A stretch of 64,000 nt of DNA from Xiphydria camelus. Taxonomy: Eukaryota; Arthropoda; Insecta; Hymenoptera; Xiphydriidae. Positions 5,790 to 30,952 of this stretch are shown here, piece by piece; within the stretch, counting starts at the first letter, position 1, and the number at the start of each line of letters is the position of its first letter. Below the pieces are notes generated by a model. It was not told where the DNA came from. It made no database searches and saw only the letters and a program-made list of their open reading frames with translations. The stretch is taken from assembly GCA_963678675.1 (NCBI GenBank), contig OY783200.1, positions 21,466,190-21,530,189 on the forward strand, in the 5' to 3' direction. Made by a program: the position numbers and the translations under genes.

Positions 5790-5963
5790 TCAAACGCATG
5801 TTGCGTAGTGATAACTGTGGCGATTTTGATATCCAGTTGTGACCTTGCATACCTTTCCTGCGGGACATTGGTGTCCGATACAAAGATCCTTGCCGGCACC
5901 TTCACTGACCCCGCTGATCGCCAATATTGTCAGCACCAGTACGAAAAATGCGAGGAACTTCAT
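5790..5963 (-). CDS. Secreted four-cysteine peptide, copy A (57 aa)
   Basis: A single-exon frame of 57 codons. Residues 1-22 form a signal peptide (MKFLAFFVLVLTI... ending VSEG), identical to that of copies B and D. The mature part has cysteines at 28, 33, 39 and 56 in a C-x4-C-x5-C-x16-C-V pattern with the shared core CPAGKVCKV. The region between the third and fourth Cys is the most diverged of the four copies (GYQNRHSYHYATCV instead of GGHTI..PHCV). The start is fixed by conservation of the frame and of the leader GGCAATTTGGAAAT before ATG in all copies. C-x4-C-x5-C followed by a later Cys recalls the follistatin/osteonectin-like EGF (FOLN) or TIL-type small modules, but this is only a spacing match. 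The product is probably secreted; defence, venom or signalling roles are all possible. Confidence 0.82.
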   Translation of the reverse strand: MKFLAFFVLVLTILAISGVSEGAGKDLCIGHQCPAGKVCKVTTGYQNRHSYHYATCV

Positions 5964-6043
5964 ATTTCCAAATTGCCTTCAACAAACGACTATGCGATCC
6001 ACTAGAATAGTAGATGTGTGTCGATTGACCCGACATTTACTGT

Positions 6044-6051
6044 CTTATATA
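6044..6051 (-). promoter_or_regulatory. TATA box of peptide gene A
   Basis: TATATAAG on the minus strand, 88 bases before the ATG, within the conserved block AAGGTGAGTATATAAGACAG shared by all four copies. It predicts a 5' UTR of about 55 nt. Confidence 0.8.
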
Positions 6052-6290
6052 CTCACCTTGATGACGTGTACTGTTGACGTATTAGATTTAAACAGATGAT
6101 ACGACCGGGATGACTCAGCAGAATCGATAATCATCAACGCCATACTATTTTAAATCATATTGTTTGCACTGTCTCGGGGCCGCTTCTAGATGATGAGACT
6201 GGAAATTTTTTTTATAACACGTGCATCGAAAGTGGTGCTTTTCATGCTAGTTTTACGGGACGAAAATAGTTCAATATTCTCAAATCGAAA

Positions 6291-6830
6291 ATGGCGAACG
6301 CAATATATATGGCGGATGATGAATTCCAGAAATTTTTAGAACTTGAAGATTATGGCTCAAAACTTGTTACTCGTGGGGTTTCGGGAACGCTCATCACGAT
6401 TCTGATATCCAAATCGATTTATACTCAAATCCAAGATGACGAATGCAATATAGCGGATGACGAATTCCAGAAATGTTTAGAATTTGAAGATTATGGCTCA
6501 AAACTTGTTACGCGGGGGGGGGGGGGGGGGTTCGGGGTCGCTCATTACGATGCTGATGTTCAAATCGGTCTATTCTCAAATCCAAGACAGCGGATCCAAT
6601 ACAGCGGATGATGAATCCCAGAAATTTTGGACAATAATCCCCTCAAATTTTGATAAACTTTTGGAATTCATTATCCGCCATATTGCATTCGCCATCTTGG
6701 ATTTGAGAATAGACCGATTTTGACATCAGCATCGTAATGAGCGACCCTGAAAACCCCTGAGTATTGTTACTGAGCCCCTGAGTGTTGAAACTTGTGTTTC
6801 GGGCCATAATCTTCAAATTATATAGCGTAT
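6291..6830. repeat. 140-bp tandem repeat array with an inverted unit
   Basis: Units beginning GCGGATGA(T/C)GAATTCC occur at 6312, 6452 and 6604 in forward orientation. The first period is 140; the second is longer because of a 17-base G run at 6514-6530. A reverse-complement unit lies at about 6660-6830. Single diverged units of the same family lie at about 26,460-26,640 and 29,525-29,700. The frame MADDEFQKFLELEDYGSKL repeated here simply follows from the repeat and is not taken as a gene. Confidence 0.8.
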
Positions 6831-6894
6831 ATTGTGCAACAAGGGTGGAAAGTTGGCTTTTGCCGACGCGCGCGAGTGTGACGTATTATATTAT

Positions 6895-7080
6895 ATTTAA
6901 ACAGATAATACGACCGTGATGACTCAGCAGAATCGATAATCATCAATGCCATACTATTTTAAATCATATTGTTTGCACTGTCTCGGGGCCGCTTCTAGAT
7001 GATGAGACTGGAAATTTTTTTTATAACACGTACATCGAAAGTGGTGCTTTTCATGCTAGTTTTACGGGACGAAAATAGCA
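6895..7080 (-). repeat. Extra copy of the peptide gene upstream flank
   Basis: Almost identical to 6085-6270, the distal upstream flank of gene A, and the reverse complement of 7430-7565 upstream of gene B. It lacks any peptide gene, TATA box or coding part, so there are three upstream flanks for two genes in this inverted cluster. Confidence 0.8.
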
Positions 7081-7275
7081 AATTGCACGCTAGGATAGAA
7101 AAGTTGAACTCGCGCACGCGCAGTTTACACTTGCTTCACTTTCGTCCCTTGAGTGAATTTTCGTTCATTTTCGTCCCTGTTTTACCGGACGAAAACGAAA
7201 ACAGCAATGGAGCGAAGCGATATCGCGCTATGCAAAACTAGCATGAAAAGCATCACTTTCGATGCACTTGTTATA
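7022..7275. mobile_element. 254-bp MITE with about 40-bp terminal inverted repeats
   Basis: The left end TATAACACGTACATCG continues through AAAGTGGTGCTTTTCATGCTAG. The right end is its near-perfect inverse (CTAGCATGAAAAGCATCACTTTCG, then GTTATA). The interior contains GGACGAAAA repeats in both orientations (ACGGGACGAAAATAG, ACCGGACGAAAACG). A truncated left end of the same element is present at 6222-6270. No coding capacity. Confidence 0.75.
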
Positions 7276-7414
7276 AAAAGTATCGTGTGCAACACGGACC
7301 GAAGTTGGCGATTGCGACGAGTGTGATAAAGTGTGTGTGTGTTTGTGTTGCAATCACACTCGTCGCAATCGCCAACTTCGGTCCGTGTTGCACACGATAC
7401 TTTTTATAACAAGT
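7266..7414. repeat. Perfect 62-bp inverted repeat with 25-bp loop
   Basis: The arms at 7266-7327 and 7353-7414 are exact reverse complements. The loop is a GT-rich 25-mer. This marks the centre of the inverted duplication that separates unit A from unit B. On a transcript it would form a very stable hairpin. Confidence 0.95.
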
Positions 7415-7603
7415 GTACTTTCGATGTACGTGTTATAAAAGAAATTTCCAGTCTCATCATCTAGAAGCGGCCCCGAGACAGTGCAAACAATATGATTGAA
7501 AATAGTATGGCGTTGATGATTATCGATTCTGCTGAGTCATCACGGTCGTATTATCTGTTTAAATATAATATAATACGTCATCAATATACGTCACCAAGGT
7601 GAG

Positions 7604-7611
7604 TATATAAG
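7604..7611 (+). promoter_or_regulatory. TATA box of peptide gene B
   Basis: TATATAAG 88 bases before the ATG, in the conserved block AAGGTGAGTATATAAGACAG. Upstream, at about 7533, is a TGAGTCA (AP-1-like) motif that reads TGGGTCA in C and D. Confidence 0.8.
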
Positions 7612-7691
7612 ACAGCAAATCTCGGGTCAATCTACACACATCTACTATTCCAGTGGATCGCATAGTCGTTTGTTGAAGGCAATTTGGAAAT

Positions 7692-7865
7692 ATGAAGTTC
7701 CTCGCATTTTTCGTACTGGTATTGACAATCTTGGCGATCAGCGGGGTCAGTGAGGGTGCCATCCCGGATCATTGTCGTGGATTCCACTGTCCCGCAGGAA
7801 AGGTATGCAAGGTCGGCCATCGAGTGATAGGTGGCCATACTATTTCATTCCCACATTGCGTTTGA
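7692..7865 (+). CDS. Secreted four-cysteine peptide, copy B (57 aa)
   Basis: A 57-codon single-exon frame with the same signal peptide as copies A and D. Cys residues are at 28, 33, 39 and 56; the core is CPAGKVCKV and the tail GGHTISFPHCV. The mature part starts near AIPDHCRGFH and is rich in His, Lys and Arg. The leader, TATA box and polyadenylation signal (7969-7974) are all in place, so the gene looks functional. Downstream homology to the other units stops at about 8297, so B lacks the second small frame and most of the antisense frame. Confidence 0.85.
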   Translation: MKFLAFFVLVLTILAISGVSEGAIPDHCRGFHCPAGKVCKVGHRVIGGHTISFPHCV

Positions 7866-7968
7866 ATGTAGAAACATTGAAGAACTACAAGTAACAAGTG
7901 GATGCCATACTGCATTCCATAGTTACTTTCTAAGGGATACAAATATTTGAAGCAATGTGAAGAAAGAT

Positions 7969-7974
7969 AATAAA
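7969..7974 (+). terminator. Polyadenylation signal AATAAA, peptide gene B
   Basis: AATAAA 104 bases after the stop codon, in the context shared by all copies. Confidence 0.75.
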
Positions 7975-8021
7975 ATTGATAAAATCTATTTCGTTGTGAT
8001 TCTCTAACTAACATTTTTACC

Positions 8022-8079
8022 TCCCTAACCCCTAAAGCCCTAAGTCCTAAGCCCTAAGCCTTAAGTCCTAAGTCCTAAA
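8022..8079 (+). repeat. Telomere-like heptamer array, copy B
   Basis: CCCTAAC, CCCTAAAG, CCCTAAG, TCCTAAG and CCTTAAG units, about eight in all, just downstream of gene B. Confidence 0.8.
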
Positions 8080-8297
8080 AAAGTATCGAGAAAATAATAG
8101 TTAATGCTGAAACATTCATAAGGGTTGATTATACACTGGGCGTATAGGAATAATTTAGTTTAGGTTCGAGTAGTTTTTATAAATATTGAGAATTTTTATT
8201 CAAGCACGGACTCGCCATATAGAGTCATTTGGATTAAGTGTGTGCAGTGGATATGTATTATACGCGGATGAGTTTTCTGCGAGCATACGATAGCTTA

Positions 8298-11200
8298 ATA
8301 GTCCAAGAGCCGGCGTCCAAAATGTGTAAGAGTTTTCTCAAAGCTAATTTTTTGAGATCAGGATACTTTTTAGTGATGGAAAGTAACTGTAGAGTCAGCA
8401 CTTCCGGTACCGGGACACCTGGCGCTGGGACGCTCGCAAAGGTGTCTTATTAATTAACGTCTCTAAACTGTTTTCTCAAAGCTCAAAATTTATAGAAAAC
8501 GAGCAAATATAATATAAAACAAGAGTCCAGCAGTTGGATTCCTCTCCTGTGGTGCCACGGACTGAAGTGGCGCTGAATGCCCTATATATACACATATGCG
8601 CGCATATATACACATGCAATTTTTGAATCAATAGTATCGGAGTACCGAATAAGTTCCCGGGCGAGCGACTCGCGGGAGAAACATGCCCCCGCCCTCTCGT
8701 CGATCGACATTCGATCGAACGTACGAAACGCTTCGAGTTTCACCGAGAGAATATTTGAATAGAGAGGGAAGAAAAAAATAAAACCCCTGTAACTATGCAA
8801 CGCGAAATGGCACAGCGCGCGCGCGCGGAAGGTAGGAGAAAAGGAATTGCCGCGGAGCTGCAGCCGCCGCTGAAGGGGCCTCCTGTGCGACTGACGAATA
8901 ATAGTTGGCCGCGCGTTTCGCGAATATTTTTCCCTCGGCTTTGTCGGGGGGCGCCGCCTTATTTCTCTTCTTCTTCCTCTTCCTCTTCTTGGAGTCGCCC
9001 TCCGCAGAGGCGGCAGCGGCGCCTGGCGAAGCGTTTATGTTTACCCCCGGTATACAGAGTGAGGAGTTGAGGGGCGGGTGGGGAGGGGGTACACACAGCC
9101 ACGTCGCTCTAGCATTTCGTAACAAGTGCGTTTTGTTGGCGCACGGAAGAAAGGAAAACGTTGGCGCATTTCTCGGTGCAGCGGCATACGGCACCACGGC
9201 GGCGACCGTGTGTGTGTACCTACCTCTCCCCTTTGTGCAGCGAAACGCCCTCGTTATCTCCAATCTCGGTAGTTTTTGCGTGAAATCGTACGCCGGGTTT
9301 CGATCGGCCGGCCTTTCTTGTCGGGTCCCCGTCACGGTATCGGCAGGAGGAAGGGAGGGAGAAAAAACCGTTGAGACTGATTTTAAAAGAGGAGGGATTA
9401 ATTAAGTGCAATCAAAAAAAGTAGGCCAATAATTGCTCTTGGGGTGTACCGTCTTTGCCTGGGAAAAAGAGGAAGTAAAATTTGGAGAAGAATAATTATT
9501 TGGCAGTGTAAGAAAAGGATAATTTCAAATTATAATTTATAATGATAATGAACATTATCGTTATCGTTATTGTTGTTATTGTCGTTATGGTTACCGTCAT
9601 CGTCGTCATTGTTGTTGTTGTTGCTGTTTTGTTGTTGTGATTGTTATCGCCATTACATTGTCATTATTATGTCGCTTACTCTTAATTCTTGTTGTTAGTT
9701 TAGTTTCAAGACTATATGGGGATCGTAAAAAGATTTATCGACGTGGTAAAAAAAAAACTGTCAGCATGTCTCGTTTCCTGCCACACCTTTAAACGCCTCA
9801 ACGCATCGAGCGATTCTCATTTCAACCCGGATGTAGCGCCTGGCCGTAAAACAATGCACCACCGACGCGCACCGTACCGGGCAGCAGTGCGCGACGCGTG
9901 CGAAGGAAATGGACCGGCGGCTTCGCGACGTTAATCCAAGTTACGGCCCGCCCTTAAAGCGCGCGAAACGTAATGCAGGTGTAATACCATCGTTACGACT
10001 GGTAGCGGTAGCAGTAGTAACGACCGAGTGCGATCGGACCGGCGGCAGTCCGACTGCAGATCGCTTACTCCACTGACCCACCGAGCGGTAGCAGCGCGCT
10101 GCGGTCAGACGTAGCGCGCCGGACCGGAGCCGGCTTTCTCTACTACGCTTCGATCGGCAGTAACCGAATGTGAATTTGACTCGCGTTCAATCGGTTCGAC
10201 TGTAGGCGATAGCATTTCTCACTTCGACGAGCGATAGTATTATAACACTAAGATAAAACGTAGGATAAACGCTTCAGTTGAGAAGTGCGAATTAAAACTC
10301 GATTATCTCTTAAACAATTGGCGATATCGAAAAAAATTCTAAACAAAAGATGTTCGTCTGAATTTTTACTACAAGAAAGCTACTTTTCATTTTTCATCTA
10401 TCTCCACTGTGCTTCGAGATAATCGCGCTCTAAGTTGAACGGAGATTGACAGGCGTTAGGACGCTTGCCGTCCGACTGCAGACGGACGTCTCTACTAGTT
10501 CCAGCAGCAGCAGCAGCAGCGACGGCGGCGCAGTAGTAACGACCGATTGCGATCAAACCCGATTTTATTGCTTGCGTATAATTGATCGCAGAAGCCGTAC
10601 CTCCTCGATTTCCGTGGAATCGCAGATGGGAATAAAATCCCGCGCTCCGCGAATCCCCGTCACAGCTGACGTTACCCCGAGCGGTGGCGGTACGACTAGA
10701 AGAGTCGGGAGGCGGGAAGATCTCAGATTTTCATCGTTAAGTACCTATTAAGGGGATAAAAAAGGCGATACCTCGCCTTTGTACGGCTTCTTATACGACG
10801 GCGATCTCCGCCGGCTTCGCGGACGAGGGAGCGCCGGGACGAACGCACCCTCCCCTTCATCCCTCTCTCTCGAAAGCGACAGAGAGGGGGGAGGGTGCAG
10901 CGGACTGACGTTTTACGCAGTGCAACGGAGCCGCCAAAACTTGTCCCACTTTGGACGACATCGTTGACAACGCTGAATATCGCTGGAGGGTGACGTTTTC
11001 GGGGGTGAAGTGTGTTATTCCGCGGAGTAATCGGTCGCGACGCGACGGGAAATACGGGTCAATCGGTTTTAAACGCGATCCCATCCCCCGTCCGAGGCTT
11101 TAATCGTCACCCCCAACGAGCGCGTTGGCTATAAAGCTCCCCCTCGCCCGAGGAAGACGACCCACCCCGCATTAAGATGCAACGAATCCGAGGGGGATAA

Positions 11201-11399
11201 ATGGGAGTCGTTAACTGGAGAAACGATAGCTGCTTTTTGATTGTAAATCGGTAGGAAAACTTTTCGCGCAAGGAACTGTAATTAAGTACTTATTGTAAAT
11301 TGTAACAATTTGTTGTATTTTTTGTCTACAGGACCCGCTTGACTTTAGCCCGACTTGATCATATTAAATTCATCGAACTGATCTAATATTATCGTTCTA
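8298..11399. other. Gene-free region with GC-rich patches
   Basis: No supported gene. 8,790-9,400 and 9,800-11,200 are GC-rich with many CpG. 9,540-9,650 is a run of imperfect GTT/GTC trinucleotides. A block beginning GCAGTAGTAACGACCGA at about 10,010 recurs near 10,530 beside an (AGC)n run, a short direct repeat 520 bases apart. Long open frames here follow from GC-rich sequence and show no family motif. Confidence 0.5.
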
Positions 11400-11968
11400 C
11401 ACTGAGAGAAAAATTTGGTGGAAAGATTTAGCCGATTTAAATTAGTCGAAACGATAATGTATTTATTTGAATTAAGGAAATTGCGTTTAATTCGATACTC
11501 GTTTATTCACAATAAGTATAAGCATAATCAATGTGAGTAAATATCAATCACACTAAAAAAATATTTAATTGTTTCAACTGCACAAAAATAGTCTTATACT
11601 ATAAAGCGAATTAAATATGAAAAGCTGTAGCAATTAAATATCTGTTTAGCTGATTAAGCATAAACTACGGTTTTATCGGACAGCTAAATATGCTTAGCTG
11701 TACTTAGAAATACTGGTATTTATAAATATTGCGATGAAGACGGACTTATATCCCTAAATACTGCATTTGTCTGCATTTACGCCCGATAAAAACGCTTTCT
11801 AAATGTACCTACATTTAGTAATTTCGATATTTATAAATGCAGTATTTATACTGTCCGATGAAAACGTATAGTCATACATTAGTTGCAATTATATAAATCA
11901 AGAAAATATTTAATTACTTGAAATAATTCAAACCAACTAAATCGATTCAACCAATTTTTTCTCCCAGT
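11400..11968. mobile_element. CACTGAGAG-ended inverted-repeat element (copy 1)
   Basis: It starts CACTGAGAGAAAAATTTGG and ends with the inverse, CCAATTTTTTCTCCCAGT. About 45 terminal bases pair through the GATTTAG / AAATCGATTC segments. The same layout and inner sequence (TACTCGTTTATTCACAATAAGTATA) occur at 60,933-61,292, making this a dispersed non-autonomous family. No coding frame. Confidence 0.8.
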
Positions 11969-12888
11969 ACATTTAATTTCAAATAAAGGCATCTCTTAAT
12001 AGCATAATAAAATAAATACACCCCCCGTATACGAAGCAGCCATTTCGAACGACTGAAAAAGCCCGTCCGATCGATCGGAATAAATGTTGAGAAAAAATCG
12101 CAGCGACGAATTTATAAATCCGCGCGGAAACGCGGCACGATTTGCCTGCGAATCCTATTGAACTTACGCCCTCGCGAAGCTCGTGCGTTCGAATAGAGGA
12201 GGAGGAGGGTGCGAGAGGAAGAGGCAGAAAGAGAGTGGGCGGTTGTTGATCGGACGGCAATGGGAAAGCCATTACGATATTAATGAGCGCTCGGTTGTTG
12301 CTCGATTGACCCCGAATAAAAAAGAAGATCCCCGGATCAACGAAACCCTGGTTAAGTTAACGGAAAAAACGAAATCGCGTGCCGAATCGTACCACACGGA
12401 TTCTATCCGGTGGTGAAAGAGTCTAGCTTTGAACTGAAATGGTAAAAATTTGATGTCGAAAATTTTAGTCCGAAATTGAGAAAATTGCCGATTGTCATTT
12501 CCCTATTTTAAGGGGCAGTTTTCCGTATATTGGAGCATTTAAATTAAGAGTGATTTGTATGTTTTCATGGTCGCTGATTATGATTTTGAGAATAGAATTA
12601 CAAAATTGGGTGAAAGTGGTTTAGTAAATTAATTTTTTTTTTATAAAAACTAGCGTATCAAAAATTCTGAACAAAACATTATGGTATATTTTGACTTGGG
12701 AAAAATATGTAAAATAATTTTGAGACCTCTATAATTACGCATTCAAGTACAGCTAATTTTATACTGAGAAAACAGAAGTTTCCTCATACAGATTACTGAT
12801 TAATAATTGCCTAACAATATAAGAAACGTAATTTTTTATAGAAATTACATACATCAGAACTACAAAACTCGAGAAAGTCTCACGAAAA
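11969..12888. other. AT-rich, no recognisable feature
   Basis: Only short chance frames. I see nothing to name. Confidence 0.4.
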
Positions 12889-13124
12889 GATTGATACCAG
12901 AAAAATTATACTGTATTTACAATAAAAGTAACACATGAGGATTTTTGGATGTTTCTACAGTGCGGAAGAGTAATTGTTCTTTTGAAAACATTAAATCGTG
13001 ATAACTTACACTAGAATTTACTAGCTTCTAAGAAAAAATTGTTCTTCAGCCCAGTAGAAACATCCGAAAATCCTTATGCGTACTTGTCTTATTGCAAGTA
13101 CGATAAAATTTACTGATATCAGTC
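12889..13124. mobile_element. Foldback element, family F (copy 1)
   Basis: An inverted repeat of about 236 bp. GATACCAG..AATTATACTG at the left pairs with ATTTACTGATATC at the right. The arms include TGAGGATTTTTGGATGTTTCT and its partner AGAAACATCCGAAAATCC. A second copy with the same arms and core (TTGAAAACATTAAATCGTGA) lies at 36,661-36,899. Confidence 0.85.
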
Positions 13125-16100
13125 CTTTCGTAATTATTAAGTCCATTGGAATCAAAAGAAACGATAGAAAAATGAGAAAAACTGAGAGAAAAGAGGTGGC
13201 ATGTATACGTGCCACTACCCCTGAAGGAGTTACAGTAGCTACGATAAGATTATTTAAATTGAAAATAAAACTTATTTATAATCATTATTAAAAAATTGTA
13301 TACGTTCAGAATTACCAATACTATTATTATTGTACGACGAAATTGTTGTTTTAAAATGAATCTAAAAAATTAACGCAAAGTAATGCCATTCCGCATTAAC
13401 CCCCAACCAAACGTGCAAAATCTCACAGACCCCCGTGGCTAGCCCCCGCGCCAACAGGGGACTTTCAAAATTTCACACGTGCGATTAAGGGTTTATCCCT
13501 TGCGGTGGTACGTTCGGTGACAGCCGCCGCAGCACTTGCCATCCGAACGCGCTACGACCGCGAGGGGTTAACTTTGCCGATCAATGGTGTCAAATGGAAT
13601 ACGCGAGTTGGACCTTGGCCAACTCCACGCCAGGAAAAGTTCGCGCTAATCAATCTTTGGCTCGCGTATCTGGTGCAATAGTTTTTACTCATTCACCGCA
13701 TTTTCGATTCTTTTTTACTGCAAGTAACCACGATAATAATCACCACAAAACGATTAAAGATACCAGTCCTTTATTACAACTCAAAATTACTCTATCGACA
13801 GGAATAAAACATTGTTCATTGCCCCGCAAAACAAATTTCGACGTAACATTATGCCAAAAAAAAAACAACCCTCCCATTTTCCACTCGGCTTTCGCGCCAC
13901 CTCGCCTATCCAGGGTAGCGCTTCGAAGGACGGAAGGGTGGTGGAAGCGAGAGCCGAGGCACTGGTGTCGAAAGAGGGTAGGAGCTTCGCGTGGGGGAGT
14001 CGCAAGGGGGTGAAGAATTGTAGATCCGAGCCGTGTCTTATCTACGGCGACGAGGGTGATGTAGCCGCGGGCAGGTGTGTGCACCCACCCTCTCCCTCTC
14101 TTTCTCTCTCTCTCTACCCTTTTCGACCCTCTCATCCGCCCTCTCTCTCCTCAGCTTCGTGCTGCCCGCTTCTAAAAACATGCAGCGCGAATCGAACTCC
14201 GCCTGGCTGCTCCGCTCGGGCGGCAGCGGGCACTGCAATGCAGTGGATACGTAGGGGGTAGGTGCCGCGCTCTTCGCCGGTACCCCCTGTACACCGATTC
14301 ACCCTCAGCCCTCCCCCGGGGCCGAATACACGTATGCGAAGCCGAGCATGCAGGTAAGGTTGCGGACGTATCGGGGGTTTCTTTCTCTTCTCTGCGATTG
14401 GAATTCGAAGGGGTTGCGAGAGGGGGATGGACGAGTGTCGTCACCGTCATCGGCGGCTATACGCTCCGGGGTGCGCGGCACTTTTGCCTCGTGGCGAATC
14501 GGCGGAAGGGGGAGGGGGGCGAGAAAAGGGGTTGAGAAACGACAGGGATTGAAGGGGGAGCGGGGGGGGGGGGGGGGGGGGAGACAGAAAAGACGTCGGA
14601 GAGGAGCACGACACAATGCGGTTTACACGAACGTCGACGTCAACGAGAGTGAGAGGGTCGGGCGGGATTCTATAGGTTTACGACGTTTAAGGGTGATTTC
14701 AACCCCCGTTCCTACAAAACGACCGACCGCCACCGACGGAATCGCTCTTCCTCCGTCCCCTTCCGCCTACTTCCACCTGCGTGTAGACATGTATATACGC
14801 GTACATTGTCGCCATAATGATATATAGGGTAGGTATTATTGCGTGTGTCTTTGTAGGGGGCGAGTCTCCGGAAGTTCGAAGTCCAATTTTGAGCGGTGAA
14901 AAATGCGAATGGCGATGTCGGATTAATAAGCCCTCCCTCGCTTACAATGTCACAAAACGACGTATTCCGCCTATATAAATATCCTATTCTAGCTTAAACG
15001 GAGCCCGAAGTAGAAAATCAAGAAATCTTTTATCCACGATTTTGAAATCTTGAATGAAGAAAATAATGAATAAACCAGACGCTTTTTCGAAGACTTAGAA
15101 ACTTATCAAATCTACACTAACAAAAGAGATAATCACTAGCGTCAACAAAATACAATATTTCTTGAACCAAGAACATAAGATTTTTAAAATTGTTGAAGAT
15201 ACAGATTGAAGAATATATTATATTAGAGGCGTTCCACGCCACACACACACACATTGACAAGAATCTGACTCTCACCTTCGCGGGTTTGCTTCGCGATTTT
15301 TTCCGTATCGTGCTGACTCTAAAAAGCTTCCAGTTTTTTAAATACCTATATTTTTTTCGTTGTGGCCTTTATGAAATATGCATTTTTCAAGATTATCAAG
15401 AAATAAAATTTTTTCAAATTCGGAAAAAGTCCTCAGAAATCTGTTGAGAAGTTCCAACCAGTTCAAGACTCGTCCAAAAGTGGTAAGATTTGGTTTATTG
15501 TTTTTTTCACGCACTCTTCAGAGATAAATATTTTTTCATATCTCGAATGTATAACACGTGAGGTTTTCTAGGGGATTCGTAAGCTGAGAGGAGTAATTAC
15601 TGGTGCGAAAACAATTTTGTCTTCTATCAAAAATATTATGAAGCTCCGAAATTTTTCGAAATAATTTCAGAAAAAAATTAATTTTACTTCTGAAGTGATT
15701 TTTATTCTTCCGAGAATATTCCAATACTTCTCCTGTAGAATTTTTGAACCAGGTTCTTTGCACGTGAAAAATATATGTTTAAAATACATGAAAAATATAT
15801 TTTCAATATTCGCGAAATATTAAAAAAGTGGCAGAAACCCATATATTTTAAATACTCGTTACACGTACTTGAAATACTTTGTTTTACATACCTCAAATAC
15901 ATTACTTTTCCGTGGGGAAACCCCGATATACATACCTCCCACGACTGCGCCAAAAAATTGCCCCAAAATCTCCCCCCCCCCCCCCCCGCATCGATCGATC
16001 GGCCCCGTCGGCATTAATACAATCCGTCCCCGATATCGCGAGCCGATAGTCGTCCCTTAGCCCCCACGTTAATACCCTCTCGACAGACACCCCCGCCGCC

Positions 16101-19394: not shown

Positions 19395-20085
19395 GGATAT
19401 TATGATGTCTGAATCGCTTTCGTCTATCAATAAAAAAAAAATCGTTTCACATTATATTTCATTAATTTATCATCGCTGTAATGAATCCTTCGATTAGAAT
19501 GGCAATTTGAAATTGTTGAGATATATTTAGAAAATATATCTCTTATCACACAGAACGAATTTTGTATAGAGACATTATGATGTCTAGATCGCTTTTATCC
19601 ACCGATAAAAAAATCGCTTCACACCACATTTCGTTAATTCATCATCGTCGTATCGAATCCTTCGATTAGAGAATAGCACATTGAAATCGTTAAAATATAT
19701 TTATAATAGCAAAGACATCTCTTATCACGGAACAAATTTTCTAGTCATTACGATCTCTGGATCGTCTTTATCAATTGATAAAAAAATCGCTTCACACTAC
19801 ATTTCGTCAATTTATCATCGTCGTATCGAATCCTTCGATTAGAATAGCAATTTGAAATCATTAAAATATATTAATAATAGCAAAGACATCTCTTACCACG
19901 GAACGAATTCTCTACAGAGTCATTACAATGTCTGGATCGTCTTTATCAATTGATAAAAAAATTGCTTTACGTTATATTTCATCAATTTATCATCGTTTTA
20001 TCAAATCCTTCAATTGGAATGATAATTTGAAGTTATTGAAATACATTTTGCACAGATATCACTTATCACGGAACAAATTTTATTG
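19395..20085. repeat. 174-bp tandem repeat, about four units
   Basis: Units marked by the box TATGATGTCT-GAATCGC start at about 19,401, 19,576, 19,750 and 19,924, a period of 174-175. Each carries ATTGATAAAAAAATCGCTT, a TTTATCATCGTCGTATCG-like box, and CTTATCACGGAAC at the end. Divergence rises toward the outer units. The 85-codon frame at 19,928-20,185 is within it and is not taken as a gene. Confidence 0.85.
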
Positions 20086-20779: not shown

Positions 20780-21412
20780 TTGAACAATTTGAACAAAATT
20801 ATTATATTTACCCCGTATTTTTTTCAACTTTCCTTTTTGACGTTATCGAAGTTAGAAAATGATATTTAAAAATGCAGCATACTACAGCAGATAAGCCTGT
20901 CTCTCTCGCACTCATCGTTTGATACAAGTGTGTTTCTCATGGTTTTTCGATGACGTTATAATAAAGTAGAGAAAAATGCACCTATAACTCAGCGAATAAT
21001 TATTTTTTTCGGATATTTTCCGTTTCGTGCGACACATTGGATATGTACCTATTCAGATTACGAATTGAATTTAAAAATTTGAATATTGTTTTATGCGATA
21101 ACTCAAATTGGTCTTTGCGTAAAAAAGAATATTTGTAACTTTGAATTCAATTTGTAATCTGTACACATATTCGATATCGTGCGAAAAAGAAAATGTCCGA
21201 AAAAATAATTATTCGCTGACTTATAAGTGCGTTTCTTTCTACAATATTGTGACGTCATCGGAATGCGAGAGAGACAGATGTACAACACATAACGTAGCTG
21301 CATTAAACAATTTTTAAATATGGTTTTTCAGATTTGATAAGACCGAAAATGAAAAATGAAAAAAATATTGGATAGATAACTTCCTCTAAATTTTTTAAGT
21401 CTGCAATGAAAA
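20780..21412. mobile_element. Family P long palindromic element, complete copy
   Basis: Two arms of about 300 bp in inverted orientation meet near 21,090. The left arm carries GAAAATGATATTTAAAAATGCAGC, TGACGTTATAAT and GCGAATAATTATTTTTTTCGG. The right arm carries the reverse of each. Ends are marked by AACAAAATTATTAT and its inverse. No coding frame, so non-autonomous. A transcript through it would fold into a long double strand. Confidence 0.85.
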
Positions 21413-22302
21413 AAATATTGGCTGCAATAAACATAACGAATTCTAGGAACTTTATTTATTGCTCAAAAGCGAGTCCATTTAAAGACGCATCACCGATAAA
21501 TGCATTAGAATCATGTCAGAAAGTTGATTAAAAAAGTTCATTTGTAAAATTTCAAACCGATTGTCTACCTCGTTAAAAAGTTACACTCTAATGAATTTTA
21601 CTACTTTACTTACGGTTCTTATGGAGAGACGAATATTAAGCAGTGAAATAAATCGAGATAACTAAAAAAAAACTATGAAATTTTTCTGATTTACGTCGGG
21701 ATTAGGAATTGTTGACCAGGCAAGATTAAAAAAAGAAATTAATAAAATTTTACATAGTCATTAACCCTTTAATCCATTCATAAATCAGAACAATTTTTAA
21801 AAATGTTCTCACAGTAATAACTAAATAACGAAATATAATTTTATTTCACCCACCGATATTCGTCCAATTAACGTTTTTCCATGAGAGCCCGGCTAAAGTT
21901 ACCTAGTAACAATTCATTGGTAGGTACAGAATTTTTTAATTTATTTTACTTATATCTAAACATTATATATGAAAATTTCATATCAGGATTTCTGTCAGGA
22001 TTTCAATACAAGTATACAAGTGGCACACATCCTTAAATGAGTGCGCGGGGTGGAAAAAACTGCGTTTCGTCCGATGTTCGCTGGGAAAATTGAAAGAGCA
22101 AGTAAAAAATGACGCGACCCGCCCCGCGGGTTCAGCGGGAGGCGAAATGAATCGTCGTTAGGAGGAAAACGAGCCTCGTAAAGCACGCGTCGCCCCGAAA
22201 TGACGCGTCGTTTCGCATCGCCGTGGCGCGTATGGACGTACCCTTCTCGAGAATAGAGTCTCTCAGGTGGATCTCCTTCAAAGTCTGAATAAATTTAGCT
22301 CC

Positions 22303-22304
<2 letters not shown>

Positions 22305-22362
<58 letters not shown>
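22305..22362. repeat. (CT)n microsatellite
   Basis: About 28 CT repeats with one interruption. The frame reading alternating Ser-Leu is an artefact. Confidence 0.95.
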
Positions 22363-22965
22363 AAGAATATTCCCAACGACCCCTTTGAAGAGGTCCTTCG
22401 AATATCGCTTCAGAGGATTTCGAAGAGGATATATATATATGCCGCGAGTCGGTTGACCCCTGGTCGTCACGGTCGAGCGACGGATGAGGGTCGACCGAAC
22501 TGCTTCGTCTGTATATTTGTTCTTCCGATGCCAAAATACTCCGCAAAAGGGCATCTGACACTGTATTACGTCGTAATAAATACACGAGTGATAAATGGCT
22601 GTACTCTGAAGAAAAAAGTCGGTTTCAAAAAAAAATGTGTTAATTGGATATTCCTGATACGAGTATCTATATAGCGTCTTTTTTTGATTCAAATGAATAT
22701 CGGTTAAATTCATATAGAAATATTATCGGTTAAATTGAATAATATTTTCATTCAGTCGAAATTCATGCGAAACGAACAAATATGCCACCGGGAATATTTA
22801 ATTATATCTACTTGTTTATTCGAAATAACTCATTTTCTTTTTTAAAGTAGGGGAATCAACATTTTAATACCAGCAAAAATAAAAATTCTAGTGCCACAAA
22901 GTGCACGATATTACGAGCATGATCTGCGCATGCAATTCGGGTCTCTCGCTATTTTTTTTCATCGA

Positions 22966-23640
22966 AGATTTTACAAATTTGGAGAAAATTAGTTACTTCG
23001 TATTTTTCCATTTTTATATTTTCTGCGTTATTTAACCCTTTCGCCACTACGGGCGACTATAGTCGCTCACCATAAGATGTCGTGTATTGTACAGGGCCCG
23101 CAAATTTTATAATCTATTGTTTTTAGACATTAGTCGCATATATTACGAAAAATCACCGCGGCGGAGAAACCACCCATAGCGAAAGGGTTAAGCTGATTAA
23201 CGATATTTAAAAATGCAGTACACGAGATTGTGCTGTATAAAAATATATAGATATATCTCTCTCTCTAATAATAAGTGCATCTCCGTGGCTTTTCGATGAC
23301 GTTATAATGCAATAGACAGAAACGCACTTTTAACTCTGCGAATAATTTTTTCTTCGGACATTTTCTTTCCTTACATATACTAATATAAAATAATTTATTG
23401 TATGATATTTATTTTAATTATGAAATTAATTATTCATTGGTATGAATAATTATTTAATAATCATGAGTTATATAAAATGTTTAATTTCTTAATGCATTAA
23501 GTTTAAATGAAAGAAATTGCAAATATTAAATTTATAATGAATCATTAAAGATTACAAATCACAAAGTACAAATACAGTTTACAAATTGAATTGAAAAATA
23601 TGAACATCCTTTTTTATACGAAGCCCAAGTTATTGCACTT
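22966..23640. mobile_element. Family P element interrupted by a piggyBac-type MITE
   Basis: The left arm (GGAGAAAATTAGTTACTTCG) runs to 23,031. It resumes at 23,192 with GCTGATTAACGATATTTAAAAATGCAG after the inserted element. The right part is more diverged, ending in TGAAAAATATGAACATCC..TTTTTATACGAA. Confidence 0.75.
23032..23191. mobile_element. piggyBac-type MITE nested in family P
   Basis: A 160-bp element bounded by TTAA on both sides, with terminal inverted repeats TTAACCCTTTCGCcac and GCGAAAGGGTTAA. TTAA target duplication with CCCTTT-type ends is the piggyBac signature. The host family P copy is cut exactly at the TTAA. Confidence 0.85.
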
Positions 23641-23659
23641 CGAAATGCAATATGACAAA

Positions 23660-25692
23660 CCAAAAAAAAAATCAGTCCCATTTAACGTAACGACAAAATT
23701 TCCTTCCGTTATATAATAACCAAATGACCCTTGAAAAATCCATTAAACGACAACTGATCTTTAACCCAAGGAAAAATCCCTCTATTTTTCTGATGCAAAA
23801 TCCACTCGCAACGAGTCAAGCGTGAGGAAGAGTCTGGTGGATCTCGGACGTAGAAACGTCTCGATCGCGGCGCTCGAAGCGTTTCTTTGCGCGATTTGTG
23901 AGACGAACTGAAAGGGCAGTGGGGGGAGAGGGGTCGCGCGCGGCAGCCCCTATACGTGGCTCTCGGCATTACGAATACCAACCCCACGGTGAAAGGAAGG
24001 GTCCGCGACCCTCGCGGATCGCGGTAGCACCGTAGCCATTATGAGATAAGCTCCGTAATGGGAAGACGAACTGAGTGGAAGGAGGGGGGGGGGGGGGGGG
24101 TTGCTGCCCTTTGAGGTATCAAATCGACGTCGAAATGCGCGTTTGGCGCATCGCGAACTACTCGAAAGAGGCTGTTTCCAATTACAAACCCCCCACCCTC
24201 CCTGCAATTACCACCCTCATTCCACCCTTAGACGACCCGATTAACGCTCCGATTTAACGAAAAAGCTGTGCTTTTTTATTTCCCAATCCTTGCATCGTAT
24301 ATATTCGAGAAAAATTCGAAAAATATCCTCCCACCCCTAAAATTATCTTGTACCACTGTCGACGTCGAAATTGCGTCGGTTCGAAATTGCTGAAGAAGTG
24401 GGAGGGGAGAGCATTGTGACGCGTCAAGACGCGCGGAGACCCCGAACAAAACGACCGCTTCCCTTATTAATTCGGCACCCGGTGCACGTGAGCTATAATG
24501 CATATATGCACGCGGGCCGATCGATCGCGGCGAGCGGGGGTTGCAGCGTGTGATGCGTACCGCACCGGAAGCGCCGGGGAAAGTCGATAAATCATCGTCG
24601 CGTCGTCGTCGTTTGAAAAAAGGGAGAAGGCAAGTCGCGGACATTTCTCCCCCGGCAATTTATCGCGGCGGGTAATTGCCGGCGTGACGCGTGCATCGCA
24701 CGCAGGGTGCATCGAACTCGCGGGTGCAGCGTGGCTCGCTCGACTGAATTCATTGATCGTTTTTCATTTTGGAGTGTAAATTTAATGCGCACTTTCTTCT
24801 TTTGTCGTCAGGGACGGATTGCACTACTTTCGGCCGAATATTTGTATGCAATTTTATTTATATTTTTATGCAGGGTGAGTTTTCTGAGACACGAAACCCT
24901 ATTTCTTTCCATCACTTGTCACTTTACAGAAGAACTTTTGGGAAAAAAGTTTTTCGGTGCCGAAGGGGAAGTATGATATTTGCAACAAATTTTGATAAAC
25001 ATGTATTTTGTTCGAGATATTAAGATCACTTTCATTTGTTCAAACGGAAATCAATTTTTGTATTCCTATAAAAATTGTAGAGGTTATAGAGACTGATAAA
25101 AGAGATACAAGTTCAAATATGCTAGTCCGTTGGACCGTTTCTGAAATATTTCCGATCAAAGTACAGGAGTAAATAAGAGTGAGAAAGAGTCAAGTCCAGA
25201 TCGCTAGCAGTGCTCAACCCGCTATCAAAAACCTTTTGCATGTATCATATGCTTCCCTTGACAACGAGCAACTTTTATTCGAAGGACTTTTTCGCAAAGT
25301 GATAAATGTGACGGAGATAAACGCAGGGCTGGGAGTAGTACGACCTCTAAAATAGGGGAAATACTAACCTCTCATGAGTGCAAAAAAGTGACAAAACGTC
25401 ACCAAAATAACATTTCTTTTTGAATTACGAGGAAATTAATTTTTTATTTAAGTTTAACTCACTTTCAAGAAACAAATCAGCATCACGATTTTATGTTCAT
25501 GATTTCAGAATTCTATTTAAAAGAAAGATCAGACATCATATTTACTTTTATCTCGATTCTTCAATGACTAATTGTCGTGCTATTCGATGACCATTATACT
25601 ATAGAATTGCGACAACAATGCACACGCTAAACTTTAAAAAATTGTATGCAGCTTGCCGAAAAGAAATTACTTTTTCCACAGCTGTATAGAAC
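23660..25692. other. Gene-free region
   Basis: GC-rich to about 24,760, with a 17-base G run at 24,084-24,100; AT-rich afterwards. No family motifs in any frame. Confidence 0.45.
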
Positions 25693-26815
25693 TTTTGCTA
25701 TTATGTAACTTTTCAAATCACAAATGAAAAGTCAAAATATCAAAATTAGGGTATAAAAGTGATCAACTTCCAGCCCTGTCAATGACTCTTAAAAAACTCA
25801 CCCTGTAAGGGGTAAAAAGGGCATAGATTGACACCACTTCACTTACTGGTCCAAAATATATTGTAAACCGAAGTTATCAGATTTGATAATGTATCTTGTC
25901 TACCTTAATAAATACCGCATATGGACTGCCACCTGACGCCGCACGTGGCTTTCATAATGATCGCTCGATTCAGTGTCGTTAAGTTTTCATGTGGGCGTGC
26001 ATGTCCTACTTTCGACGAAGACAACTTTTCGAAACTTTAGGTCTTTTTAAAGTGGCAAAAATTTATAAATAAAATGACTAGTATAATTTAATCTCTATAC
26101 AAAATCACCTACTAATGTCAATCTCGGAATGCAATAAACAAAAATTGAGATTTTTAGCCGATTGCATGCAGTATAGACGAACATTTTAACAGGTGTCAAT
26201 CTTAAACAAAATATGGGGTAAGATTGACATCCGAATTTATTTTTTTTTAATCATTGTTCAAAAGCGATAAGTAGTAAAATAAAATGCGTCTTATATCATA
26301 TACCTAAAGGGAGAGTCAGGCTTGCTTATCCATAAGATTCAGAAAATGTGTCAATGTTAACTCAGTGTCAATGTTGGTCCGCGTTACCCTATATCTATCT
26401 CCACGCAAAATCGAGTGCCGAATGGAGTGATGGAATTTCCGTCTCCTCTCGAGGATTATATAATCTTCAAATTCTAAAAATGTTTGGAATTCATCATCCG
26501 CCATATTGCATTCGCCATCTTGGATTTGAGAATAGACCGATTTTGACATCAGCATCGTAATGAGCGACCCTGAAAATCACCGAGTAACAAGTTTCGGACC
26601 ATAATCTTAAAATTTTGATAAATATCTGGAATTCATCATCCGCTGGTCGATATCTATCGACCATCCAGGGCTCTAAAGGTTAAAGTGTAAACAGGAGGCC
26701 GTGTCTAACGGGGGGGCCATTTCGTGCCACGCACGAAGGCGCACTAGCGCCAAAAGACCTCATACCATCTCTAGAAAAGGGCGCTAAGCACGAATAGAAG
26801 GCGTCTCATCATCTA

Positions 26816-27347
26816 CGAGCCCTGTCCCGCTTCAGTTGGCCCATCCACTCAAATAACAATTATTAACTGAATTGTAAAGTTACTGCTGCCTTATATTTTT
26901 TCTAGGCTGAAATGTAATTGTAAAACTGTTTTGTAGTACACTGCACGGCACTATATGTTTCATAATGTACCTACAATTTTAAAATAAAGTCCGAATTGAA
27001 GAAAATAATGCTTCTGGTCATATTTTATCCGCCGGCTATTTCGAGCATTGCGAGCCTTACTTACGAATTAATTATTTAATTAATTAATTACGAATTGCGG
27101 CAGTTATTAAAAGCAAAGGCGATGTTACCCAGTGGTGAATTTTTCAAGACGCTGCAATATTTTTTTCATTTTTTTGCAGTTTGTTATCGTAACATGATTA
27201 AACTGCTGGTAGGTCTTAAAATCAGTAAAAATGTTGGTTAAAAAATAAATAACGTGCATATTAACATAAACTGTAGACTTATCTTGATTAAGTGTCAATA
27301 ACCGGAAAAATTGTACAACTGGGCCAACTGAAGCGGGATCGGGCTCG
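26816..27347. mobile_element. 532-bp TIR element upstream of gene C
   Basis: The ends read CGAGCCCTGTCCCGCTTCAG / TTGGCCCA and the inverse, about 28 bp with two mismatches, flanked by TA on both sides. Copies A and B keep the empty site (CATCATCTAGAAGC), so the insertion with its TA duplication can be read directly. Such a duplication fits Tc1/mariner-type elements. No coding frame. It lies about 120 bases before the TATA box. Confidence 0.88.
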
Positions 27348-27466
27348 TAGAAGCGACCCCGTCAGTGCAAACAATATGATGTAAAATAGTATAACGTTGA
27401 TGATTATCGATTCCGCTGGGTCATCCCGGTTGTATCATCTGTTTAAAAACACGTCACCAAGGTGAG

Positions 27467-27474
27467 TATATAAG
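27467..27474 (+). promoter_or_regulatory. TATA box of peptide gene C
   Basis: TATATAAG 95 bases before the ATG. The leader is a few bases longer than in B and D because of a GGATCCC-containing insertion. Confidence 0.8.
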
Positions 27475-27561
27475 ACAGTAAATGTCGGGTCAATCGGCAC
27501 ACATCTACTGGATCCCATTCCACTGGATCGCATAGTCATTTGTTGAAGGCAATTTGGAAAT

Positions 27562-27735
27562 ATGAAGTTCCTCGCATTTTACGTACTGGTATTGACAATC
27601 TTGGCGATCAGCGGGGTCAGTGAGGGTTCCGCCCCGCTTCTTTGTACAAATTTCAACTGTCCCCCAGGAAAGGTGTGCAAGGTCACCCGTCAATACGTAG
27701 GTGGCCATACTATTTCACTCCCACATTGCGTTTGA
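27562..27735 (+). CDS. Secreted four-cysteine peptide, copy C (57 aa)
   Basis: A 57-codon single-exon frame. The signal peptide differs from the other copies by one residue (Tyr for Phe at position 7). Cys at 28, 33, 39 and 56; core CPPGKVCKV; tail GGHTISLPHCV; mature N-terminus SAPLLCTNFN. The promoter (27,467) and polyadenylation signal (27,831-27,836) are conserved. Compared with copy D I count 16 amino-acid-changing substitutions and one silent substitution in the coding part, apart from the lost stop, within units otherwise near-identical. Confidence 0.85.
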   Translation: MKFLAFYVLVLTILAISGVSEGSAPLLCTNFNCPPGKVCKVTRQYVGGHTISLPHCV

Positions 27736-27830
27736 ATTTAGAAACATTGGAGAACTAACAAATGGATGCCATACTGCATTCCATAAGTACTTTCTAATGG
27801 ATACAAATATTTGAACCAATGAAGAAAGAT

Positions 27831-27836
27831 AATAAA
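27831..27836 (+). terminator. Polyadenylation signal AATAAA, peptide gene C
   Basis: AATAAA 96 bases after the stop codon, in conserved context. Confidence 0.75.
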
Positions 27837-27882
27837 ATTGGTAAAATCAATTTCGTTGTGATTCTTTAATTAACATTTTTAC

Positions 27883-27940
27883 CTCCCTAAGCCCTAAAGC
27901 CCTAAGTCCTAAGCCCTAAGCCTTAAGTCCTAAGTCCTAA
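27883..27940 (+). repeat. Telomere-like heptamer array, copy C
   Basis: CCCTAAG, CCCTAAAG, CCCTAAG, TCCTAAG, CCCTAAG, CCTTAAG, TCCTAAG, TCCTAAA in order. Confidence 0.8.
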
Positions 27941-28119
27941 ACAAGTATCGAGAAAATAATAGTTAATGCTGAAACATTCATAAGGGTTGATTATACACTG
28001 AGCATGTAGGAATAATTTAGTTTAGGTTCGAATAGTTTTTATAAATATTGAGAATTTATTCAAGCACAGACTCGCCATCTAGAGTCATTTGGATTAAGCG
28101 TGTGTGCAGTGGATAAGTA

Positions 28120-28368
28120 TTATACGCGGTTGAGTTTTCTGCGAACATACGATAGCTTAACAAATGAAAGTTTCCAAGGGTTATTTTCATTTAACGTGAT
28201 TGCAAAAAGTACGTTAAATTTCTCCGCTGCAGTTTGACATAAATATTTAGCAGGTAAAATGTTATTTCCTGTAGCTTCCTTATTTATTTCACGATTATTC
28301 AGCAATGAGTTATTAAATATATGGAATGACTCTAGACCAGAAAGGTATATGGCCATCGTAGTCGCCAT
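28120..28368 (-). CDS. Conserved antisense small ORF, unknown function, copy C
   Basis: An 82-codon frame starting MATTMAIYLSG. It is nearly identical to the frame in D and about 85% identical to that in A. The start is four codons further out than in A, where the upstream ATG is lost. No domain recognised; expression unknown. Confidence 0.35.
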   Translation of the reverse strand: MATTMAIYLSGLESFHIFNNSLLNNREINKEATGNNILPAKYLCQTAAEKFNVLFAITLNENNPWKLSFVKLSYVRRKLNRV

Positions 28369-28420
28369 TCATTTATTGTCATATGTATAAAATGTCAAGA
28401 CCGCACACCGCCGTAATTAA

Positions 28421-28634
28421 ATGATTTTAATGTTTCTTTCACTGTTGCTAGTGTGGGAAAAACGTACGGGGAGGAAGTGGGCGCATAATTTCAAATGTAC
28501 CCTCCATGAAGGAAGTCCGTGTGTGTGTGACCTTTGCAATTAACAATAAGTGTCCAGAAAAGGGTGCATATACTTGTCCCCATAGACATGTTCACTTACC
28601 GCACGTATCGGGCAAGTGTGCGCAAAACGACTGA
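28421..28634 (+). pseudogene. Second small peptide, copy C, leader and tail out of frame
   Basis: A TATAAAA box at 28,386-28,392 is followed at 28,421 by a leader-like MILMFLSLLLVWEK frame that ends early (PCVCDLCN, stop). The Cys/His tail (NNKCPEKGAYTCPHRHVHLPH, GKCAQND) is read in another frame from an internal ATG at 28,506 to the stop at 28,632-28,634. In copy A the two parts are in one frame. Either C and D are broken, or the real product uses one of the two shorter frames. Confidence 0.4.
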
Positions 28635-29881
28635 GTTTAATTATTCATTTATAATTCATCACGTAGCTGACGAATGTTTGTTCTTTGAATTTAAATATTT
28701 AAATAAATGTCTACTGGTAATAAAGACATACAAATAAAACCATATATCATTTTCCTAATTTTGCTATTGTGTAACTTTTCAAATCACAAATGAAAAGTCA
28801 AAATATCAAAATTAGGGTATAAAAGTGATCAACTTCCAGCCCTGTCAATGACTCTTAAAAAACTCACCCTGTAAGGGGTAAAAAGGGCATAGATTGACAC
28901 CACTTTACTTACTGGTCCAAAATATATTGTAAACCGAAGTTATCAGATTTGATAATGTATCTTGTCTACCTTAATAAATACCGCATATGGACTGCCACCT
29001 GACGCCGCACGTGGCTTTCATAATGATCGCCCGATTCAGTGTCGTTAAGTTTTCATGTGGGCGTGCATGTCCTACTTTCGACGAAGACAACTTTTCGAAA
29101 CTTTAGGTCTTTTTAAAGTGGCAAAAATTTATAAATAAAATGACTAGTATAATTTAATCTCTATACAAAATCACCTACTAATGTCAATCTCGGAATGCAA
29201 TAAACAAAAATTGAGATTTTTAGCCGATTGCATGCAGTATAGACGAACATTTTAACAGGTGTCAATCTTAAACAAAATATGGGGTAAGATTGACATCCGA
29301 ATTTATTTTTTTTTAATCATTGTTCAAAAGCGATAAGTAGTAAAATAAAATGCGTCTTATATCATATACCTAAAGGGAGAGTCAGGCTTGCTTATCCATA
29401 AGATTCAGAAAATGTGTCAATGTTAACTCAGTGTCAATGTTGGTCCGCGTTACCCTATATCTATCTCCACGCAAAATCGAGTGCCGAATGGAGTGATGGA
29501 ATTTCCGTCTCCTCTCGAGGATTATATAATCTTCAAATTCTAAAAATGTTTGGAATTCATCATCCGCCATATTGCATTCGCCATCTTGGATTTGAGAATA
29601 GACCGCTTTTGACATCAGCATCGTAATGAGCGACCCTGAAAATCACCGAGTAACAAGTTTCGGACCATAATCTTAAAATTTTGATAAATATCTGGAATTC
29701 ATCATCCGCTGGTCGATATCTATCGACCATCCAGGGCTCTAAAGGTTAAAGTGTAAACAGGAGGCCGTGTCTAACGGGGGGGCCATTTCGTGCCACGCAC
29801 GAAGGCGCACTAGCGCCAAAAGACCTCATACCATCTCTAGAAAAGGGCGCTAAGCACGAATAGAAGGCGTCTCATCATCTA

Positions 29882-30413
29882 CGAGCCCTGTCCCGCTTCA
29901 GTTGGCCCATCCACTCAAATAACAATTATTAACTGAATTGTAAAGTTACTGCTGCCTTATATTTTTTCTAGGCTGAAATGTAATTGTAAAACTGTTTTGT
30001 AGTACACTGCACGGCACTATATGTTTCATAATGTACCTACAATTTTAAAATAAAGTCCGAATTGAAGAAAATAATGCTTTTGGTCATATTTTATCCGCCG
30101 GCTATTTCGAGCATTTCGAGCCTTACTTACGAATTAATTATTTAATTAATTAATTACGAATTGCGGCAGTTATTAAAAGCAAAGGCGATGTTACCCAGTG
30201 GTGAATTTTTCAAGACGCTGCAATATTTTTTTCATTTTTTTGCAGTTTGTTATCGTAACATGATTAAACAGCTGGTAGGTCTTAAAATCAGTAAAAATGT
30301 TGGTTAAAAAATAAATAACGTGCATATTAACATAAACTGTAGACTTATCTTGATTAAGTGTCAATAACCGGAAAAATTGTACAACTGGACCAACTGAAGC
30401 GGGATCGGGCTCG
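29882..30413. mobile_element. 532-bp TIR element upstream of gene D
   Basis: The duplicated copy of the element at 26,816-27,347, of the same length and with TA flanks. It therefore inserted before the tandem duplication. Confidence 0.88.
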
Positions 30414-30532
30414 TAGAAGCGACCCCGTCAGTGCAAACAATATGATGTAAAATAGTATAACGTTGATGATTATCGATTCCGCTGGGTCATCCCGGTTGTA
30501 TCATCTGTTTAAAAACACGTCACCAAGGTGAG

Positions 30533-30540
30533 TATATAAG
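30533..30540 (+). promoter_or_regulatory. TATA box of peptide gene D
   Basis: TATATAAG 89 bases before the ATG, in the conserved promoter block. Confidence 0.8.
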
Positions 30541-30621
30541 ACAGTAAATGTCGGGTCAATCTACACACATCTACTATTCCAGTTGAGTCGCATAGTCGTT
30601 TGTTGAAGGCAATTTGGAAAT

Positions 30622-30810
30622 ATGAAGTTCCTCGCATTTTTCGTACTGGTATTGACAATCTTGGCGATCAGCGGGGTCAGTGAGGGTTCCGGCTCGCTTA
30701 CTTGTGAACATTTCTACTGTCCCCCAGGAAAGGTATGCAAGGTCACCCCTCGATTCGTACGTGGCCATACTGTTACAGTCCCACATTGCGTTTCGATTTC
30801 GAAACATTGA
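30622..30810 (+). CDS. Secreted four-cysteine peptide, copy D (62 aa)
   Basis: A 62-codon single-exon frame. The signal peptide equals that of A and B. Cys at 28, 33, 39 and 56; core CPPGKVCKV; tail RGHTVTVPHCV. The usual stop after Val57 is changed (TGA to TCG), so the product gains SISKH before the next stop. The mature N-terminus is SGSLTCEHFY. Promoter and polyadenylation signal (30,901-30,906) are intact. Leader and 3' flank are closer to copy B than to the tandem twin C, which suggests exchange between copies. Confidence 0.85.
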   Translation: MKFLAFFVLVLTILAISGVSEGSGSLTCEHFYCPPGKVCKVTPRFVRGHTVTVPHCVSISKH

Positions 30811-30900
30811 AGAACTACAAGTAACAAGTGGATGCCATACTGCATTCCATAGTTACTTTCTCTAAGGGATAAAAATATTTGAACCAATGTGAAGAAAGAT

Positions 30901-30906
30901 AATAAA
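30901..30906 (+). terminator. Polyadenylation signal AATAAA, peptide gene D
   Basis: AATAAA 91 bases after the stop codon, in conserved context. Confidence 0.75.
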
Positions 30907-30952
30907 ATTGATAAAATCTATTTCGTTGTGATTCTTTAATTAACATTTTTAC

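Follow-up and report, generated by a model that had tools for sequence, protein, structure and literature searches.

Four clustered genes for small four-cysteine peptides in Xiphydria camelus combine a conserved signal peptide with a diversified mature part on a half-FOLN-like frame

Analysis of a 64,000-nucleotide stretch of Xiphydria camelus DNA (assembly GCA_963678675.1, contig OY783200.1, positions 21,466,190 to 21,530,189; the whole stretch is called the window here) revealed four genes, A to D, for small cysteine-rich precursors with a conserved signal peptide and a mature part under strong diversifying selection. From their sequences we consider it probable, with some reservation, that they form a small family of peptides that are secreted as effectors, use half a FOLN module as a stand-alone scaffold and have diversified in an arms race. 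Their most likely role would be that of an outward-acting gland product (a venom- or saliva-like effector), with a host-defence peptide as a close rival. Arms-race secreted peptides are a known kind of system; the new feature here would be the half-FOLN frame.

The precursors are 57-62 amino acids (aa) long and comprise a 22-residue signal peptide with a putative cleavage site and a mature part of 35-40 residues. Gene A (57 aa) is located on the minus strand at 5790-5963 (signal 5898-5963, mature part 5793-5897, stop codon 5790-5792). The other three lie on the plus strand: gene B (57 aa) at 7692-7865 (signal 7692-7757, mature part 7758-7862), gene C (57 aa) at 27562-27735 (signal 27562-27627, mature part 27628-27732) and gene D (62 aa) at 30622-30810 (signal 30622-30687, mature part 30688-30807). 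All four share the TATA promoter element TATATAAG 88-95 bases 5' of the ATG (A: 6044-6051, minus strand; B: 7604-7611, C: 27467-27474 and D: 30533-30540, plus strand) and an AATAAA polyadenylation signal at +269 to +279 from the ATG (A: 5689-5694, minus strand, with a further signal at +199; B: 7969-7974, C: 27831-27836 and D: 30901-30906, plus strand). An alignment of the four precursors showed 33 invariant columns, including 21 of the 22 signal residues and the cysteines C28, C33, C39 and C56 (C1 to C4 in the following), which are spaced as C-x4-C-x5-C-x16-C-V in every precursor. The core CP(A/P)GKVCKV is constant across the proteins at all positions but A/P. The open reading frame (ORF) ends directly after C4-V in A, B and C, whereas gene D lacks their stop codon (30793-30810) and runs on for five codons, which add the C-terminal residues SISKH. 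The mature peptides have net charges of +3, +3, +3 and +4 and isoelectric points of 8.9-9.2. A preliminary description of this DNA had reported these four frames with their positions and the common promoter, signal peptide, polyadenylation signal and cysteine pattern, all of which were verified in the window. Its term "intronless" holds for the coding parts, which are single frames; the untranslated parts may still contain introns.

Chance ORFs were ruled out by shuffling and simulation. The degenerate core pattern TGYCCNSCNGGNAARGTNTGYAARGT, with at most three mismatches, has exactly four occurrences in the window, a count that none of 100 shuffles equalled. An ORF filter of our own (ATG start, 45-90 aa, hydrophobic N-terminus, at least four cysteines after residue 20) returned only genes A-D from the window and a single ORF in total from 30 first-order Markov windows. 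A blastn scan of the 64 kb detected no fifth full copy. A weak tblastn match (E 0.002-0.003) at 12942-13010 on the minus strand covered 18-23 residues in the C-terminal half of mature C and D; the lowest chance E in 40 simulated windows was 0.005, none being as low as this match. The region has no in-frame signal peptide, has stops close by and reached a best E of 0.067 by blastn against the four genes. It was set aside as a fifth gene; we regard the similarity as a chance match or, at best, the trace of an old relic that is no longer recognisable. Elsewhere outside genes A-D, tblastn gave only weaker matches (E of at least 0.018).

For the mature part, codon-based maximum likelihood (ML) analysis on each of the three possible trees gave omega values of 7.9, 6.1 and 6.2, all differing from omega = 1 at a p of about 1e-4, and fitting signal and mature part together gave an omega of 0.09-0.10 for the signal. 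When sequences were simulated under omega = 1 along the (AB,CD) tree, none of 200 runs reached the observed statistic. These results show strong diversifying selection on the mature part, and the conserved leader with a variable mature part pointed out in the preliminary description can now be expressed as an omega of about 0.1 against one of 6-8. Pairwise comparisons showed more nonsynonymous than synonymous change in all six pairs, with a one-sided p below 0.05 in four of them (rounded counts, pairs not independent) and values of 0.073 for B-C and 0.080 for A-C; the excess is present for A-B, B-D and A-D. Outside the core, C and D differ by 15 nonsynonymous and no synonymous changes. In the pair B-D, the signals are identical (0 of 66 sites differ) and the stretches from the stop codon to about +300 are close (6 of 127 sites, plus two gap columns), whereas the mature parts differ at 26 of 105 sites, with 24.5 nonsynonymous against 1.5 synonymous changes (one-sided Fisher p 0.009, rounded counts). 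Exchange between copies alone is insufficient to explain the mature part, because it is far apart in B and D while their signals are identical and their 3' parts close. Local hypermutation as the sole cause was also rejected, since it would have changed synonymous sites too.

Searches with the four proteins revealed matches to the Pfam model FOLN (PF09289) in all of them at E of at most 0.001, confined to profile positions 1-14 of 22. The bit scores of A (23.2) and C (27.3) lay above the cut-off of 21.1 and those of B (20.4) and D (20.7) just below it. None of ten shuffled controls matched FOLN, and one of the two that retained proline and glycine matched another EGF-like model below its cut-off. 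TILa (PF12714) scored 14.5-18.5 bits in B, C and D, below its 27-bit cut-off, and was not listed for A; Pfam listed no family beyond FOLN and TILa for the four proteins. PDB sequence searches with mature C returned follistatin (1lr7; E 3.1) and CREMP (9pgb; E 5.7), both in the C-x4-C-x5-C register and not significant. Altogether, no larger known protein matched significantly in the Pfam, NCBIfam and PDB sequence searches, and no homologue was found in the sequence collections searched, which may hold few animals. A literature search for the peptide sequences gave no match, one for the FOLN domain in insects found nothing, and one of two publications joining follistatin, venom, Hymenoptera and cysteine-rich peptides concerns, in its accessible part, Kazal and other inhibitors. 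As far as these limited searches reach, the family looks undescribed.

A match restricted to the front of the FOLN profile, together with a stop codon in D five codons later than in A, B and C, might be expected of decaying or truncated, non-functional fragments of a larger FOLN/EGF protein. Such an origin is very improbable and largely refuted, because decay would strike the signal and the cysteines too: each of the four genes has its own signal peptide, TATA element and AATAAA, all four frames are intact, the cysteines are invariant and the signal evolves at an omega of about 0.1. The preliminary description had named placement within a larger known protein by a profile search as speaking against a family; in the databases searched no such placement emerged, the profile match being limited to 14 of the 22 positions of one small module.

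AlphaFold2 modelling of the mature part gave a mean predicted local distance difference test score of 85.7, with the blocks after residue 10 at 90, and a predicted template modelling score (pTM) of 0.41. Strands were predicted at residues 17-24 and 27-34; C3 and C4 are at residues 17 and 34, so the hairpin spans C3 to C4. The predicted fold, an N-terminal loop plus a beta-hairpin, is that of the first half of EGF-like/FOLN modules. Searches of solved structures revealed no significant fold match. EGF modules have their main hairpin between C3 and C4 and disulfides C1-C3 and C2-C4, and a FOLN or EGF-like module is defined by six cysteines, with a C5-C6 loop after C4. With four cysteines the peptides fall outside this definition, and the C3-C4 hairpin is present in the prediction; by analogy, they would correspond to the front half of an EGF-like module, ending where C5 would start. 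The half-FOLN resemblance suspected in the preliminary description is thus borne out by the Pfam matches and the predicted hairpin.

Comparison with the FOLN domain of follistatin (PDB 1lr7) showed the same C-x4-C-x5-C spacing with a glycine between C2 and C3. The peptides differ from it in the long C3-C4 loop (x16), the absence of C5/C6 and of a Kazal part thereafter, and their predicted nature as stand-alone secreted peptides. After C4-V follistatin continues with C5, whereas three of the four genes have a stop codon there. The repeated modules of a multi-module structural protein also open with C-x4-C-x5-C, and two of the four aligned have CP-x-G-x2-C; however, that protein contains many modules, and the matches (E 2.7-5.7) are not significant and give no sign of common origin. 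The EGF-like venom toxins of ants (MIITX, MYRTX and ECTX groups) are, according to the accessible part of their description, small and secreted without a propeptide, have conserved signal sites and six conserved cysteines, and in Myrmica have mature parts of 49-56 aa (PMC9147725). Compared by description only, the X. camelus peptides are similar in being small, secreted (as predicted) and EGF-related, with conserved signal sites and no propeptide, but they have four cysteines and a mature part of 35-40 aa and lack the six-cysteine backbone.

Genes A and B are transcribed divergently, about 1.7 kb apart. Genes C and D lie within the two copies of a 3066-bp tandem duplication on the plus strand, C in the first (25693-28600) and D in the second (28759-31670; all ends approximate). 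The flanks of C and D differ at 8 of 1797 and 6 of 640 sites (14 of 2437), with no indels, whereas in the gene region, from about -72 to +298 relative to the ATG, 33 of 364 sites differ and there are five indels; the p of 9e-20 for this difference is too good, as the borders were picked after inspecting 50-base bins, in which the contrast is plain. The gene is an island of divergence inside an otherwise near-identical 3-kb duplication. Within the island, C and D differ at 1 of 66 sites in the signal, 18 of 108 in the mature part with the stop codon, 5 of 65 in the 5' part and 9 of 125 in the 3' part. Beyond 28500 the two copies diverge once more towards the end of the duplication. Flanks that are about 99.4% identical across both copies between 25693 and 28500 would also be seen if C and D were two alleles that the assembly had placed in tandem, the island being allelic divergence. 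This assembly effect is improbable: the outer ends of the two copies are not in common, and the excess of nonsynonymous changes in A-B, B-D and A-D would persist even if C and D were allelic.

Gene D has a mosaic pattern when compared with B and C. All 12 informative sites from -200 to -75 group D with C and not with B, while from -75 to 0 there are one C-like and four B-like sites and five more that are unique to D. The signal has no C-like and one B-like site, and the mature part 13 C-like, three B-like and five unique sites. Further downstream, four C-like, seven B-like and four unique sites were counted from +171 to +320, and six C-like against two B-like sites from +320 to +560. Two 60-base intervals that cover +180 to +300 gave 116 identical sites of 118 between B and D, and 102 of 110 with ten gap columns between C and D. 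The B-like stretches in the non-coding parts of D therefore suggest exchange between copies, and the simplest reading of them would be gene conversion, later than the duplication, with a B-like copy. A mosaic test gave p 0.0003, but it takes in sites past about +600, where B is not homologous, which inflates the C-like count; the claim rests on the regional counts.

In many venom, salivary, immune and seminal families positive selection is found only in the secreted part, while leader and cysteine frame are fixed; the four genes show the conserved signal and the fast, positively selected mature part of such arms-race peptides. Mosquito salivary families include fast-evolving or intronless secreted genes, according to the accessible part of PMC5307786. 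Instead of a gland product, the genes might encode immune peptides, antimicrobial or otherwise: small, basic hairpins with two disulfides that act against microbes or parasites and are diversified by pathogen pressure. The net charge of +3 to +4 and the predicted hairpin are consistent with this, and the Foldseek list includes an analogue of arenicin-3, a hairpin antimicrobial peptide, at rank 41 (E 6.5, TMt 0.68, non-significant). Mussel CRP-I, as far as its description is accessible, offers a further parallel: its signal is conserved, its cysteine-rich mature part is hypervariable and positively selected, its genes are duplicated in tandem and an immune action is proposed for it (PMC10138031); it has six cysteines in a different array and a propeptide and is an analogue in evolutionary mode only. 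However, the charge of the X. camelus peptides is modest, and a simple pattern detected no NF-kB-like site in the 245 bases 5' of any of the four ATGs. Moreover, duplication is the main mode of evolution in many insect immune peptides, rather than change at an omega far above 1. An immune role is possible but appears doubtful to us. In reproductive proteins, too, the signal is conserved, the mature part evolves fast and genes duplicate locally, and nothing seen in the window contradicts seminal or other reproductive peptides under sexual conflict; nothing specific points to them, Pfam lists only FOLN and TILa, and this role is distinctly unlikely.

Several points weigh against an effector family as the favoured explanation. 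Venom, saliva, immunity and reproduction can each yield such a sequence pattern, and simple patterns showed no clear immune- or gland-specific code in the four promoters: forkhead-like and CRE-like sites occur in all four genes, AP-1 only in A and B and GATA-like only in B, all scored without background and weak hints at most. The ML test includes four sequences only, and exchange between copies breaks its assumption of a single tree, although all six pairwise comparisons point the same way; for the 23 codons outside the core, omega rose to 101-148, reaching the optimiser's bound on two of the three trees, a magnitude that means only "large". Finally, the fold, with its low pTM and no significant match among solved folds, depends on a four-sequence model.

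If the genes do encode secreted effectors, each would be transcribed from its TATA promoter with one unbroken coding frame, and removal of the signal would release the basic mature peptide. The four cysteines would form two disulfides, probably C1-C3 and C2-C4, which clamp the N-terminal loop to the C3-C4 hairpin, while the residues outside the cysteines and the core may form a variable binding surface that is changed under positive selection. Duplication and exchange between copies would spread new peptide versions. We put forward, as a tentative extension, that the front half of a FOLN/EGF-like module, with its four cysteines, serves as the stand-alone minimal scaffold of a new effector class. 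In it, a mature segment of about 100 bases would be diversified almost only at amino-acid-changing sites while the copies swap surrounding segments of the transcription unit, leaving most of a 3-kb duplication 99% identical, with the gene as the exception. If true, this would add a compact, probably two-disulfide scaffold to the animal frames used for fast-changing effector peptides, and the tandem C/D pair, with about 99% identity beyond the gene, would be well suited to studying whether new versions originate by point changes under selection or by segment swapping.

The stretch between A and B contains an orphan copy of the upstream promoter region (6879-7042, minus strand), which is 98% complementary to 7417-7580 and has none of the four ORFs attached; it probably remains from a gene copy that was lost or partial. 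A fully complementary inverted repeat of 63 nucleotides (nt; 7265-7327 and 7353-7415, spacer 25 nt) is also located there. Just 3' of the polyadenylation signal, at about +310 to +390 from the ATG, all four copies have degenerate CCTAA-like runs (CCCTAAGCCCTAAAGCCCTAAGTCCTAA...; in B at about 8022-8080), reminiscent of the insect telomere repeat TTAGG. Genes A, C and D are each followed, on the opposite strand, by a conserved ORF of 82 aa (5158-5403, plus; 28123-28368 and 31193-31438, minus), and a Pfam scan of those at 5158-5403 and 28123-28368 gave nothing above cut-off. The same was true for ten ORFs of the window other than genes A-D (out of 217 of at least 75 aa, stop to stop), and neither Rfam at its gathering threshold nor a tRNA scan gave any hit in the window. 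At 19398-20047 the window contains four tandem copies of a unit of about 172 bp; over 130 nt, the reference copy shares 69-85% identity with the other three.

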